A DNA stretch of 64,000 nt. Source: a bacterium (lineage in GTDB: Bacteria > Chloroflexota > Dormibacteria > Aeolococcales > Aeolococcaceae). The stretch covers positions 97,675 through 161,674 of the forward strand of contig JAJZLL010000049.1 of the NCBI GenBank assembly GCA_021803465.1, given 5' to 3'. A program made the translations under genes and the position numbers. The first letter of the stretch is position 1. The number at the start of each line of letters is the position of its first letter. Of the stretch, positions 23,439 to 47,088 are shown in pieces. The notes below the pieces were generated by a model. The model ran no database searches, was not told the origin of the DNA, and saw only the letters and a program-made list of their open reading frames with translations.

Positions 23439-23822
23439 CTACTGGCCCTGTGCCCGGGTCTCGTATTCCTCATGTGTGAGGAGTGGGGTGTCGGGAAGGC
23501 TGAACGGCTGCACCCTGAGGAGCCAGCCATCGTCGTATGGGTGCGCATTGATGAGCTCCGGCGCATCTGTCAGGGCAGTATTTGTTTCAAGGATCGTTCC
23601 AGAGACGGGAGCATAGAGGTCACTTGCTGCCTTGACCGATTCGATTGTCCCAATACGCTCACCTGCTGACACCACCCTCCCCGCTTTCGGAAGATCCACG
23701 AAGATGACGTCTCCAAGCTGGGACTGGGCATGGTCAGTGATGCCCACAGTTGCTGTCTCGCCTTGTACATCCACCCATTCATGCGTCTCAGTGAACCGAA
23801 GATTGGAAAGATCACTTCCCAC
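23439..23822 (-). CDS. gcvH: Glycine cleavage system H protein
   Basis: 127 residues from GTG 23822, preceded by AAGGAGG with 6-nt spacing. The frame is open upstream but that is the gcvT C-terminus. It is the lipoyl carrier that shuttles the aminomethyl group between P, T and L proteins. The lipoylation site is K64 in 'GTIESVKAASDLYAPVSG'; 'THEWVDVQGETATVGITDHA' is also typical. Starts inside gcvT (11-bp overlap). gcvP is not in the window. Confidence 0.96.
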   Translation of the reverse strand: MGSDLSNLRFTETHEWVDVQGETATVGITDHAQSQLGDVIFVDLPKAGRVVSAGERIGTIESVKAASDLYAPVSGTILETNTALTDAPELINAHPYDDGWLLRVQPFSLPDTPLLTHEEYETRAQGQ

Positions 23823-24933
23823 GGGATTCCTCCTTGCTTTGTGTCTGGGCTCGCCGGTAGAACGGAAGGGGCACCCGTTCGGCCGTTTCCACGGTATCAC
23901 GGATGGCAATGTCATACGTAGGAAGCTTCGCATGTTCGTGGTCCACCCGAGCTGTCGCTATGGGGTATCCAAGGCTGAAGCTGAAACCGCCACTCGTTAT
24001 CGTGCCAATGCGCACATTGTCATGGAAGACGGCATTGCCGTGACGGGGTATTGTCCGACCAGAGAAACGGAGTCCAACGAAGGAGGAGTGGGAATCTGAT
24101 GCGTGGATCTGTGCAAGCGCATCGCGTCCGATGAATGCCTCTTTGCCAAGCTTCACTGTCCATCCAAGTCCTGTGTCGTATGGAGAGTTTGTCATGTCCA
24201 TGTCTGAGCCATACAGCCTGAGTCCTGCCTCAAGCCGCAGGATGTCCCGTGCACCAAGACCACACAGCCTGCCGTCATCCTCCGCAAGGAGCGAGGCACA
24301 GGCTTCCCACACGGGAAGAGCCCTGCTGCCAGGGACGTACATCTCGAAGCCGTCTTCACCGGTGTAGCCCGTCCGTGAGAGACGAACAGGAATTCCCTGA
24401 AGTTCCATGTCGACAAAGTGGAAGGGAGTGGGCTGCTGTGAGGGAGAACACCCCATTTTGCCGATGACAGCTGCAGCGCTTGGACCCTGGACAGCTATGA
24501 GCGCTGTCTCATCCGAAAGATCGGCAACGCGGATAGTGTCATCCGCATTCTGCTGCATCCAGGCAATGTCCTCCGCTGTTCTGCTCGCATTGATGACGAG
24601 ATACATGCTTTCATCCGACTCGCAGTAGACAAGGAGATCATCAATAATTCCACCAGTCTGCGTGCACATCGTTGTGTAGCAGACACTACCAGGTGTGAGC
24701 TGCAGAACGTCATTTGTGACGAGCTCATGAACCCAGATCTTTGCGGACGGTCCTGTGATGCGAACTTCGCCCATGTGGGACAGATCGAACATTCCCACTG
24801 CAGACCTGACTGCACGATGCTCATCCCGGATCGACGTGTACTGCATTGGCATTTCGTAGCCAGCGAACGCGCTCATGTGCGCACCCTGCTCACGATGCCA
24901 GAGCGTCATGGGAGTCATCTTCATGGGCATCAT
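23812..24933 (-). CDS. gcvT: Glycine cleavage system T protein (aminomethyltransferase)
   Basis: 373 residues. Transfers the methylene of the aminomethyl-lipoyl group on GcvH to tetrahydrofolate and releases ammonia. Family marks are 'FAGYEMPMQYTSIRDEHRAV', 'GMFDLSHMGEVRITGP', the 'NASRTAEDIAWMQQ' segment and 'SRTGYTGEDGFEMY'. Several N-terminal Met are possible starts (residues 1, 2, 4, 6). There is no ordinary Shine-Dalgarno; the only candidate (AGGCGA) lies within the hairpin at 24938-24966. Overlaps gcvH by 11 bp. Confidence 0.95.
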   Translation of the reverse strand: MMPMKMTPMTLWHREQGAHMSAFAGYEMPMQYTSIRDEHRAVRSAVGMFDLSHMGEVRITGPSAKIWVHELVTNDVLQLTPGSVCYTTMCTQTGGIIDDLLVYCESDESMYLVINASRTAEDIAWMQQNADDTIRVADLSDETALIAVQGPSAAAVIGKMGCSPSQQPTPFHFVDMELQGIPVRLSRTGYTGEDGFEMYVPGSRALPVWEACASLLAEDDGRLCGLGARDILRLEAGLRLYGSDMDMTNSPYDTGLGWTVKLGKEAFIGRDALAQIHASDSHSSFVGLRFSGRTIPRHGNAVFHDNVRIGTITSGGFSFSLGYPIATARVDHEHAKLPTYDIAIRDTVETAERVPLPFYRRAQTQSKEESRGK

Positions 24934-43160: not shown

Positions 43161-43166
43161 TACAAT
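43161..43166 (+). promoter_or_regulatory. -10 box before the carboxyltransferase-like gene
   Basis: TACAAT overlaps the first possible ATG (43165) and lies 7 nt before the second in-frame ATG (43174). If this is the promoter, the transcript starts at or just before 43174 and the protein begins MNQISLV. No Shine-Dalgarno is present. Confidence 0.4.
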
Positions 43167-44982
43167 GCAAGACATGAACCAGATATCTCTCGTCGATACA
43201 TCTCTCCGGTGGGGACAGGAAGCACTCCTTGTGAGCCGTCTCCGGAGCAGACATGCAGTGCAGGTCGCCCGTGCTCTTGATGGATGCGGGTTCGCGGCAC
43301 TCGATGTCATGGGAAGCGCAGCGTTCGAGGCATCGCTCCGGTTTCTCGGAGAGGATCCCTTCGAGCGGCTCAGCGAACTCCGGCAGGCAATCTCCAGCAC
43401 TCCCATGATGGTTACCCTTGGTGGCCAGGTGGGCTTCAGCCATCACCATCTTCCTGATGATGTCATTGACATGATGGTCAAGGAGCTCCGCAACCGTGGG
43501 GTCGACTGGATCCGCGTCTATGACAGTCTCAACCGCCTTGATTCTGTGCAGCACCTCATTGAGCGTGCACGGCATGCGAAGCAGCACGTTGACGGTTTTG
43601 TCGTTTACAATCCCACTCCTGCCTATACAGCAAAGAAGCTTGCAGCATTGGCAAAGGCCATGTCCGAAGCTGGATGTGAGCGGATCACCGTGTATGATCC
43701 CCTTGGCATCCTTAGCGAGCATCAGGCACGGGAAGTGGTTGCTGCATGTGTAAAGGCTGCAGGAGTTCCGTGTGGCATTGCATCGTCGATGATTACCGGC
43801 ATTGCTCCACTCGCGTACTCGGGCGCCATTGATGCGGGTGCAACGTTTGTGGACACCTGCCTACCCGCACTCTCAAGCGCGGCATCCGCTCCAGCAGTGG
43901 AAGCTGTCATTCACGGTCTTGAGACAAAGGTCACTTTCGCTGCAGGCAATGCGGATGCGCGGCATGCGGCGGAGGAGGCAACCGAGTCCATGCTCGGTCT
44001 GTACGAGGAGGTTCTCGATCCATTCCGCTGGAGGCATGACACTGCACCCCTTGAGGGCGCACTTCCAGTAAGCAGCATTCCCGCAGTGCTCGAGCATCTC
44101 CAGTCACTTGAGGAGCTCAGCGGAGAGAGGCTGGCAGCGATAGCACGGGAAGCTGCTGCAGTAAGCGAGGACATGGGCGAACCCAGCTGGGTGACACCGC
44201 TGCGGGAGATCGTTGCCATGCAGGCGACATACAACGTTGTTGAGGGAGACAGGTATGTCCAGATCTCCCAGGAGATCAAGGACTACTTCCTTGGACTCTA
44301 TGGCCATCCTCCAGGAGCAGTGAACCCATCAGTGGAGCGGACAGTCAACGGCATGGAGGAGCCCATTACCTGCAGGCCAGCAGACGTACTTGAGCCAGGC
44401 ATTCCCCATGCAAGAAAGATGCTCGAAGCGGAGGATGTGCCAGTGACGGACGCGTCCACAGTCATGTACGCAATGTATCCATCGCTGTATCTCGCATATG
44501 CCCGTGGAGAGCTCCTTCCCGAGCGGCTCCCTGACGATGCAGTCGTAGTGGAGGATGCGCTCCAAGCTGGGGAAACGCTGGAAGCGGAAGCAGCGGAAGG
44601 GGCAGCTCCTGTAGAGGAGATTGTGGAGGAGGAATCCTTCGAGGAGATGACTGTCGAGGTGGATGGCGAGACCTACCACGTCCGTATTCTCGAGCGGTCA
44701 GGTGTCGCAGCCATTGTTGAGGGAAGCACACCTGTCGCAGCTCCGAAGCCAGCTGGTGGAAAGAGGAAGGAAGGCACAGTGGTGGCCCCCATGCAGGGCC
44801 TCATTCTCAAGGTGCATGCCACTCCTGGAGCGAAGGTGAAGATGGGCGACGTGGTGGCTGTCCTTGAAGCCATGAAGATGCAGAACGACATCGTTGCGAC
44901 AAGGGACGGTGTCGTGAAAGAGGTGTACGTCAAGGAAGGCAGTGTTGTGAAGCCGGACGATCCAGTCGTCCTTGTGGAGTAG
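43165..44982 (+). CDS. Carboxyltransferase-BCCP protein (PycB/OadA-like) with degenerate metal site
   Basis: 605 residues. Residues 8-290 align along their length with the TIM-barrel carboxyltransferase of pyruvate carboxylase B and oxaloacetate decarboxylase. However, the metal Asp ('TLRDAHQ') is W16, the substrate Arg ('LLRGQ') is G86, the carboxylated Lys ('KDMAGLL') is Y177 and the two metal His ('HxHTH') are A206 and S208. A helical domain and an acidic linker (about 450-500) follow, then an intact biotin carrier domain with K571 in 'VLEAMKMQND'. ATG 43174 is an alternative, leaderless start. The biotin carboxylase follows after 3 bp. Normal pyruvate carboxylation is doubtful. Confidence 0.85.
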   Translation: MQDMNQISLVDTSLRWGQEALLVSRLRSRHAVQVARALDGCGFAALDVMGSAAFEASLRFLGEDPFERLSELRQAISSTPMMVTLGGQVGFSHHHLPDDVIDMMVKELRNRGVDWIRVYDSLNRLDSVQHLIERARHAKQHVDGFVVYNPTPAYTAKKLAALAKAMSEAGCERITVYDPLGILSEHQAREVVAACVKAAGVPCGIASSMITGIAPLAYSGAIDAGATFVDTCLPALSSAASAPAVEAVIHGLETKVTFAAGNADARHAAEEATESMLGLYEEVLDPFRWRHDTAPLEGALPVSSIPAVLEHLQSLEELSGERLAAIAREAAAVSEDMGEPSWVTPLREIVAMQATYNVVEGDRYVQISQEIKDYFLGLYGHPPGAVNPSVERTVNGMEEPITCRPADVLEPGIPHARKMLEAEDVPVTDASTVMYAMYPSLYLAYARGELLPERLPDDAVVVEDALQAGETLEAEAAEGAAPVEEIVEEESFEEMTVEVDGETYHVRILERSGVAAIVEGSTPVAAPKPAGGKRKEGTVVAPMQGLILKVHATPGAKVKMGDVVAVLEAMKMQNDIVATRDGVVKEVYVKEGSVVKPDDPVVLVE

Positions 44983-44985
44983 GTC

Positions 44986-46431
44986 ATGCTGTCATCCGTC
45001 CTCATAGCCAACAGGGGCGAGATAGCCTGCAGGGTCATCCGTGCCTGCAGGGATCTTGGCATCCGGAGCGTTGCAGTGTACAGCGAGGCCGATGCACGGG
45101 CACCGTTTGTCGCACTTGCGGACGAGGCGTACTGCATAGGTCCGCCACAGCCTCAGCAGTCGTATCTCAACATTGAGGCAATACTCGATGTTGCGAGGAA
45201 GTCGGGAGTCGAAGCCATCCATCCCGGATACGGCTTTCTCAGTGAGAACGCGAAGTTTTCCGCAGCATGCCGTGATGCGGGCATCACCTTCATTGGCCCC
45301 ACGCCCGAAGCAGTCGAAGCCATGGGGGACAAGGTGAGCGCACGGGAGCGGATGCGTGTTGCGGGTGTCCCCATTGTTCCAGGCAGCGGATTTCTCACCT
45401 CTGTTGAGGAGGCGCAGGCTGTCGCGGGGGATGTTGGCTACCCCATCCTCCTCAAGGCGAGCGCAGGTGGTGGTGGCATTGGGATGCATGTCGCAACAAC
45501 GCCAGAGGAGCTCGCACGACTGTTCGAGACAGCCCAAAGCCAGGCGCTCCGCGCATTTGGCAATGGTGCCCTTTTTCTTGAGAGGTATGTTGCGGAACCG
45601 CGGCACATCGAGATCCAGATCATAGCGGACACCCATGGCAATGTCGTCCATCTTGGAGAGCGGGAATGCTCCATCCAGAGGAGGCACCAGAAGATTGTTG
45701 AGGAGACACCGTCAGTTGTCATCACTGATGAGCTCAGGGAACAGATGGGTGCAGCTGCAGTGAAGGCTGGTGCGGCTGTGGGCTATGTCAATGCGGGCAC
45801 AGTAGAGTTCATCTTCAGCAGGGGGGAGTTCTTCTTCCTGGAGATGAATACCCGTCTCCAGGTTGAACATCCCATAACGGAAGCTGTCACAGGCATTGAT
45901 CTTGTGGAAACGCAGCTTCGTGTCGCATCAGGGGAGAAGCTTCCCTTCACGCAAAAGGACATCCGCCGCAATGGACATGCCATTGAATGCCGTGTGAATG
46001 CCGAGGCATACGCCCAAGGCTTTCTCCCGGCTCCTGGAACAGTCCGCGGCTATCATGCGCCAGAAGGACCGGGAGTGCGTGTGGACAGCGCCCTTGCGGG
46101 ACCAGGCACAGTCTCTCCCCATTACGATCCCATGGTCGCAAAGCTCATCGTCTGGGGAAGCACACGGGAACAGGCGCTCAACAGGATGCAGCGTGCGCTC
46201 TATGAATACGTCATCACGGGCATGACCACGAACATTCCCTACCATGCAGCAATCATGCAGAACGAGGAGTTCCGCAGGGGAACATACACGACAGCGTTCA
46301 TCGAGGAGCATCCGGAACTCATCGCCATTGCGGATGCGTGGGACGCAGCGCGGAACGTGCAGGATCTCGTCGACGATCCGAGGAAGAGAGCAGCAGTCAT
46401 TGCAGCAGTTGTGGCAGCGCAGCGGGCATAG
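44986..46431 (+). CDS. Biotin carboxylase subunit (PycA/AccC-type)
   Basis: 481 residues. ATP-dependent carboxylation of biotin. All main residues look present: 'MGDKVSARERM', the Gly-rich 'KASAGGGGIGMH' (an Ile replaces the usual Arg after the glycines), 'ERECSIQRRHQKIVEETPS', 'FLEMNTRLQVEHPITEAVTG' and 'IECRVNAE'. The start 'MLSSVLIANRGEIACRVIRA' is canonical. It sits 3 bp after the carboxyltransferase-BCCP gene and must be its partner. Could in principle also serve acyl-CoA carboxylases. GGAG/AGG lies in the preceding stop region. Confidence 0.93.
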   Translation: MLSSVLIANRGEIACRVIRACRDLGIRSVAVYSEADARAPFVALADEAYCIGPPQPQQSYLNIEAILDVARKSGVEAIHPGYGFLSENAKFSAACRDAGITFIGPTPEAVEAMGDKVSARERMRVAGVPIVPGSGFLTSVEEAQAVAGDVGYPILLKASAGGGGIGMHVATTPEELARLFETAQSQALRAFGNGALFLERYVAEPRHIEIQIIADTHGNVVHLGERECSIQRRHQKIVEETPSVVITDELREQMGAAAVKAGAAVGYVNAGTVEFIFSRGEFFFLEMNTRLQVEHPITEAVTGIDLVETQLRVASGEKLPFTQKDIRRNGHAIECRVNAEAYAQGFLPAPGTVRGYHAPEGPGVRVDSALAGPGTVSPHYDPMVAKLIVWGSTREQALNRMQRALYEYVITGMTTNIPYHAAIMQNEEFRRGTYTTAFIEEHPELIAIADAWDAARNVQDLVDDPRKRAAVIAAVVAAQRA

Positions 46432-46449: not shown

Positions 46450-47088
46450 ATGGGCATCCTCTACGACCGTGCATGTGTTGCTCCTCTCATTGAGGCGATT
46501 GATGGTCTTCAGCGTGCACGGGCTGTCTGGATCACGAATGTTGGCTCCATCATTCCAGCACTGACACTTGCACGGATGGGAGGAGACTCCCTTGATGAGG
46601 TTGTTGTCCATGTTGCAACACGGCTGGAGCAGGAACGCTGGAATGCTGCGAGGGCCAGCCAGCCCCACGCTGGTCACATCCGGTGCGAGACGGATCCGGA
46701 TCCTTCCGGAAGGGCGTGGACTGTTCTTGTCGGTGATGAGCCGGGAGAACCCCGACTTCCTGACGAGTGGAGCACCATGTACATGCTATCCCACGATGTG
46801 GCTCCAGCAGATGTCTTTTTTCATGAGGAGCTGGGACTCCCAATGTCCCCGCTGGCCTTTCCAGGAAGCACCACGAAAATGTCGCTCAGGGACACCATAG
46901 TGCTGAGGCATGCAGCAGAATTCGTGCAGCTCATGGAGGATGCCCATCCCCGTGCAAGCGGGATGCCACTGCTCCAGGTTTCCAATGCGGAGCTAGCATC
47001 GGCATGCGATGGAATGGTGCTGCCGGATGGAACCGTGCGGCTGAGAATTGAACGTACCTGTGCAGTGTCCCTACGGGAGGGCGCGTAG
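46450..47088 (+). CDS. Hypothetical protein at the end of the biotin-enzyme operon
   Basis: 212 residues, family not recognised. No signal peptide or membrane helix. A first alpha/beta region ('PLIEAIDGLQRARAVWITNV', 'LARMGGDSLDEVVVHVATRL') is followed by an acidic Pro-rich stretch and a mixed C-terminus with 'LSHDVAPADVFFHEELGL' and 'SLRDTIVLRHAAEFVQLMED'. It begins 18 bp after the biotin carboxylase stop with GGGA about 8 nt before the ATG, so it is probably co-expressed. The small hairpin GCTGT/ACAGC in the gap could couple translation. Confidence 0.6.
   Translation: MGILYDRACVAPLIEAIDGLQRARAVWITNVGSIIPALTLARMGGDSLDEVVVHVATRLEQERWNAARASQPHAGHIRCETDPDPSGRAWTVLVGDEPGEPRLPDEWSTMYMLSHDVAPADVFFHEELGLPMSPLAFPGSTTKMSLRDTIVLRHAAEFVQLMEDAHPRASGMPLLQVSNAELASACDGMVLPDGTVRLRIERTCAVSLREGA

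Follow-up and report, generated by a model that had tools for sequence, protein, structure and literature searches.

What can a carboxyltransferase subunit do for a cell when every ligand of its metal has been replaced, while its biotin site and the biotin carboxylase (BC) encoded beside it are intact? This question is raised by a gene pair in the 64,000-nucleotide stretch of DNA analyzed here (the window), which belongs to a 2.03-Mb, 73-contig metagenome-assembled genome (MAG) estimated to be 91% complete (G000); the gene counts reported below for G000 come from searches of this assembly.

A PycB-like protein encoded beside its biotin carboxylase

An uninterrupted frame of 605 codons at window positions 43165 to 44982 encodes a protein of the PycB/OadA type (P0001), and the BC gene begins 3 bp past its stop codon. 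The features of the pair are as follows:

43165..44982, + strand: PycB-like protein with a putatively dead carboxyltransferase barrel (P0001, 605 aa), from the open reading frame (ORF), homology, and domain matches
43180..44064, + strand: TIM-barrel part, about residues 6-300, with an AlphaFold2 fold like those of OadA and transcarboxylase 5S
44122..44679, + strand: PYC_OADA conserved domain, residues 320-505, including beta strands that hold the BC subunit in two-subunit pyruvate carboxylase (PC)
44776..44979, + strand: biotin carrier domain, spanning residues 538-605 and containing EAMKM (codon of K571, 44875-44877)
44986..46431, + strand: BC subunit, 481 aa, intact, the sole PF00289 match in the genome
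46372..46428, + strand: Ala-rich C-terminal tail of the BC, located where two-subunit PC has its assembly helix

A first, sequence-only reading of this DNA had assigned the barrel to the PycB/OadA type, and end-to-end phmmer matches bear this out: residues 6 to 602 of P0001 align to the beta subunit of two-subunit PC (5ks8_C; E value of 3e-79), and OadA (2nx9) and S. aureus PC (3ho8) match as well. Homology therefore runs across the carboxyltransferase (CT), conserved carboxylase, and carrier domains, as it should in a PycB. The NCBIfam PycB model PRK09282 scores 393 bits on P0001, slightly below its cutoff of 402, and the oadA model TIGR01108 scores 361 bits against a cutoff of 756.5; P0001 has neither the score nor the metal site of an OadA. 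The EAMKM biotin site with K571 is intact, as had been claimed, and in combination with the adjacent BC gene it is again what a PycB would have; the BC, likewise described as intact, matches all three biotin-carboxylase Pfam domains.

Loss of the metal and pyruvate ligands

Residues were mapped in a MAFFT alignment of P0001 with genome homologs and three PDB sequences, using the usual residue roles and R. etli PC numbering of pyruvate carboxylase. The alignment identified the following codons:

43210..43212, + strand: W16, in place of the metal Asp (D549 of R. etli PC)
43420..43422, + strand: G86, in place of the pyruvate Arg (R621)
43693..43695, + strand: Y177, in place of the carboxylated Lys (K718)
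43780..43788, + strand: A206 and S208, in place of the metal His pair (H747 and H749)
44194..44196, + strand: T344, equivalent to the essential Thr882, kept (Ala in families f3 and f4)

The losses named by the sequence-only reading are thus placed at these very sites: all four metal ligands (W16, Y177, A206, and S208) and the pyruvate Arg (G86) are replaced, and P0001 lacks both the metal site and the substrate Arg expected of a PycB. Asp, Lys, and His ligands could have lain elsewhere in the sequence, a point on which that reading depended; no compensating conserved set of these residues was found in the clade alignment. A congener (L002, from G001) that is 88% identical carries the same five residues, so the changes are not a sequencing artifact, and alignment error or a frameshift was ruled out given an unambiguous alignment across all motifs.

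Other parts of the active site are retained. R15 (R548) is kept, and position 19 (Q552) is E in P0001 and Q in nearly all relatives. The catalytic Thr expected of a PycB is present as T344, which corresponds to T882 of R. etli PC and T908 of 3hbl; the column was checked using the sequence from 3hbl, an S. aureus structure with the T908A change. Thr882 has been termed catalytically essential (PMC5895798).

A metal-less clade and its sister families

All 27 sampled proteins from the window protein's own family (f1) and a sister family of the same order (f2) in this Dormibacterota class fall into one metal-less clade with branch support of 100, in a short-search tree where a long branch (1.65) leads to the window protein and its congener and where the clade is defined by metal-ligand loss itself. 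The loss is graded, with f2 and two f1 genera keeping H206 and R86 without the Asp, the Lys, or the second His, and the remaining f1 genera having lost all five residues. The earlier suggestion that W16, Y177, A206, and S208 might be conserved in a clade holds for the loss, which is clade-wide, and fails for the replacing residues, which vary: position 16 is H, Y, W, Q, L, A, or S, and position 177 is H, Y, F, Q, L, or R. Residues this diverse point to sites freed from their former role more than to a new catalytic site common to the clade. Throughout the clade, R15 is invariant, Q19 is nearly so, and position 344 is T or S, while G17 and P179, both beside lost ligands, are newly fixed; with R15 invariant and these two residues fixed, the pocket is not entirely free to drift. 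Of 117 canonical invariant positions, 58 remain as they were; V497 and G501, in the linker strands that bind the BC, belong to these, and so does the carrier motif, whose conservation is partly selected because that motif was among the search patterns for homologs.

In the sister families the active site is altered differently. In family f3, Lys718 is replaced by Glu and Thr882 by Ala, and f4 keeps the D/K/H/H metal site with Thr882 changed to Ala and the motif VAPIRQ instead of VTPTSQ (members L018, L019, L023, L025, L031-L034, and others; L023 and L109 lie on one contig, that of G057). The Asp and both His are kept in f3 members L028, L039, L046, L051, L056, L057, L064, L065, L067, L069, and L073 (L046, L056, and L064 share their contig coordinates with G060, G058, and G054, respectively), and the Glu in place of the carboxylated Lys could be a mimic of carboxylysine. 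The full canonical residue set was present in no Dormibacterota protein sampled, and it is present in archaeal and Dehalococcoidia homologs. One protein from a Bacillota-labeled MAG (L075) has Asn where the carboxylated Lys would be, Ser at the position of Thr882, and His instead of R548.

Selection and predicted fold

The sequence-only reading had argued that random decay could not explain the changes, and measures of constraint agree. Pairwise Nei-Gojobori comparison of the window barrel with that of the congener gave a dN/dS of 0.049, a rough value because the synonymous distance is high (about 1.2); other metal-less pairs gave 0.05 to 0.13 for the barrel, compared to 0.009 to 0.030 in f3/f4 pairs. 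An AlphaFold2 model built on 43 aligned sequences reached a pLDDT of 87, with the barrel and carrier mostly >90 and the linkers disordered, and strands were predicted at residues 492 to 509, where the conserved V497 and G501 lie. Set against known structures, as had been proposed, the model appears intact: Foldseek aligned it to the V. cholerae OadA carboxyltransferase with a TM score of 0.92 and 2.1 Å over 453 columns. Purifying selection and the predicted intact fold together indicate that the barrel is a maintained domain.

Carriers, biotin carboxylases, and carboxyltransferases across genomes

Searches of G000 recovered one PF00289 BC N-terminal domain, which is the neighbor of P0001, and one PYC_OADA protein, P0001 itself; a separate canonical PycB, which the first reading had proposed looking for, was not found in the 91% complete assembly. 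The EAMKM motif occurs once, in P0001, and four PF00364 domains were recovered at E values up to 1, namely, two E2-type lipoyl domains (DKVD and DKVN), GcvH, and P0001. The GcvH match (window positions 23439 to 23933, beside GcvT at 23812 to 24933) is the fourth and a weak one, and GcvH is not a biotin carrier. Four PF01039 matches comprise AccA, AccD, a PccB-like protein, and an MccB-like protein, encoded at a fabH-accD-accA locus on contig C50, at a methylmalonyl-CoA mutase-PccB locus on C61, and beside an HMG-CoA lyase-like gene on C15 (MccB-like). No BC or carrier gene was found beside any of these carboxyltransferase genes in G000, and a BirA homolog is encoded on C50. Within the 91% complete assembly, a sole BC and a sole carrier therefore stand amid several acyl-CoA carboxyltransferases, as would be expected of a shared donor. 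AccDA-based fatty acid synthesis requires carboxybiotin, for which the P0001 carrier and its BC are thus the only source found in G000; at 91% completeness, the assembly may lack a further carrier or BC.

Exactly one BC was counted in 47 of 61 genomes and additional BCs in a few, and almost all of the 61 have several acyl-CoA carboxyltransferases. A small ESMKM biotin carrier (70 to 100 aa; L157-L168), often beside an MccB-like carboxyltransferase, is present in most f1, f3, and f4 genomes, and we accordingly dropped the idea that a P0001-type protein is the sole carrier in every relative. The ESMKM query had no match in G000, in the congener genome G001, or in 15 of the 18 f2 genomes. In genus g13, about 4 kb separates the BC gene from the barrel gene, and accDA, which might have been expected in between, was not among the ORFs there. 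No PEP carboxylase match was recovered in G000, G001, G005, or most f2 genomes; this enzyme was considered as replacement anaplerosis and set aside, since roughly half of the relatives have it but G000 does not.

Discussion

Taken together, these results make it probable that a dead barrel has been retained as a scaffold and biotin carrier that supplies acyl-CoA carboxyltransferases with carboxybiotin in trans; the residue loss and the gene counts are observed, and the delivery is what we infer from them. P0001 would descend from the beta subunit of a two-subunit PC, and because its barrel lacks the known means of binding metal or pyruvate, it would be inactive toward pyruvate and make no oxaloacetate. 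It would have been kept as the bearer of biotin and as a BC-binding scaffold, with BC and P0001 presumably still assembling into a complex. BirA would biotinylate K571, the adjacent BC would carboxylate the biotin using ATP and bicarbonate, and the carrier domain would swing to hand carboxybiotin in trans to the AccD-AccA, PccB-like, and MccB-like enzymes, with the barrel serving in dimerization and carrier placement. Since a single BC and no other biotin carrier were found in the genome, P0001 most likely serves acyl-CoA carboxylases. One counterpoint is that, given the ESMKM carriers and extra BCs in relatives, a P0001-type protein is not always the sole carrier.

Elements of this arrangement are known from other systems. 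In M. flagellatus PC, a C-terminal helix of the BC and a beta sheet of the linker between CT and carrier hold the subunits together, and assembly is abolished when an Ala of that helix is changed to Arg (PMC5059739). The window pair resembles this two-subunit PC (PycA/PycB; 5ks8) in its gene pair, CT-linker-carrier order, and overall fold (PMC5059739) and in having a separate BC with an Ala-rich C-terminal tail, but P0001 differs in lacking the metal ligands and pyruvate Arg and is predicted not to carboxylate pyruvate. Its barrel fold is shared with OadA (2nx9) and transcarboxylase 5S (1rqb), with TM scores of 0.90 to 0.92 by target length; unlike both, it lacks the metal site and has its own BC neighbor, as in carboxylases. 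A single carboxybiotin donor for several acyl-CoA carboxyltransferases has a parallel in M. tuberculosis AccA3, proposed to serve three carboxyltransferases (PMC5407890), although in AccA3 BC and carrier are fused, whereas here they are separate and the carrier sits on a putatively dead PC barrel. Chloroflexus aurantiacus acetyl-CoA carboxylase likewise has an unusual BC/carrier arrangement, a BC1-BCCP fusion that works with separate CT-alpha and CT-beta (PMC11077971), but it has no PC-derived subunit. A literature search covering few subscription journals returned no prior description in Dormibacterota and no named pseudoenzyme of this type.

The sequence-only reading had offered altered chemistry or a structural barrel carrying biotin for another enzyme. 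Genome context favors the structural barrel. Altered chemistry is the less likely option, since the residues now standing at the ligand positions vary among clade members. It is unlikely, though deserving of consideration, that the barrel still transfers carboxyl, either without metal or to a new acceptor, via Arg15, Gln/Glu19, Thr344, Gly17, and Pro179. The retention of R15, Q19, and T344 and the fixation of G17 and P179 could reflect a remodeled but used pocket, and purifying selection on the barrel is strong; on the other hand, positions 16, 86, 177, 206, and 208 hold many unrelated residues in the clade, the barrel is less constrained than its counterparts in the sister families, and the barrel gene has no linked acceptor gene or pathway. 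We regard as improbable a version in which the barrel is noncatalytic and P0001 and its BC serve one partner, such as only PccB or only AccDA, while the remaining carboxyltransferases rely on carriers that the assembly lacks. The 91% completeness and the small ESMKM carriers of relatives, with their frequent MccB-like neighbors, would allow for this, but such a carrier was absent from G000 by both PF00364 and the ESMKM query, from G001 by the latter query, and from 15 of the 18 f2 genomes.

Very little probability attaches to P0001 being a normal PC subunit whose metal site is formed by other residues or obscured by misalignment. The lack of a PEP carboxylase match in G000, and so of a replacement source of oxaloacetate from this enzyme, is the main point for residual PC activity; PEP carboxylase is also missing from many f1/f2 genomes, and overall similarity to PycB is considerable (393 bits for PRK09282, near the 402 cutoff). 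Against this stand the unambiguous alignment over all motifs and the failure of any alternative Asp/Lys/His set to be conserved. Recent decay to a pseudogene, which the lost catalytic residues alone might suggest, can be dismissed given an open frame, a dN/dS of 0.05, an intact adjoining BC, and the same state in 27 sampled clade proteins.

If P0001 is indeed a carrier scaffold, then "pyruvate carboxylase subunit B" is the wrong name for these proteins across a class of soil bacteria, metabolic models credit these bacteria with an anaplerotic reaction that they lack, and a carboxyltransferase pseudoenzyme has been retained for its carrier arm. The series f4, f3, f2, f1 would then record, in graded form, a multidomain enzyme losing one activity while that arm is reused. 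We tentatively extend this to the whole class, which may have dropped pyruvate carboxylation via different mutational routes (the metal site in f1/f2, Lys718Glu plus Thr882Ala in f3, and Thr882Ala in f4), either retaining the two-subunit enzyme as an all-purpose BC-plus-carrier module in acyl-CoA carboxylation or turning the barrel to an undescribed metal-free carboxyl transfer.

Neighboring genes

Just downstream of the BC gene, a 212-aa ORF (window positions 46450 to 47088) has no Pfam or NCBIfam match. A PlsC-type acyltransferase gene and an epimerase-like gene lie upstream of the P0001 gene in the window, and in several relatives (L003, L004, L007, L008, L013, L023, L031, L033, and L039) purD and/or purE is located just upstream of the PycB-like gene.
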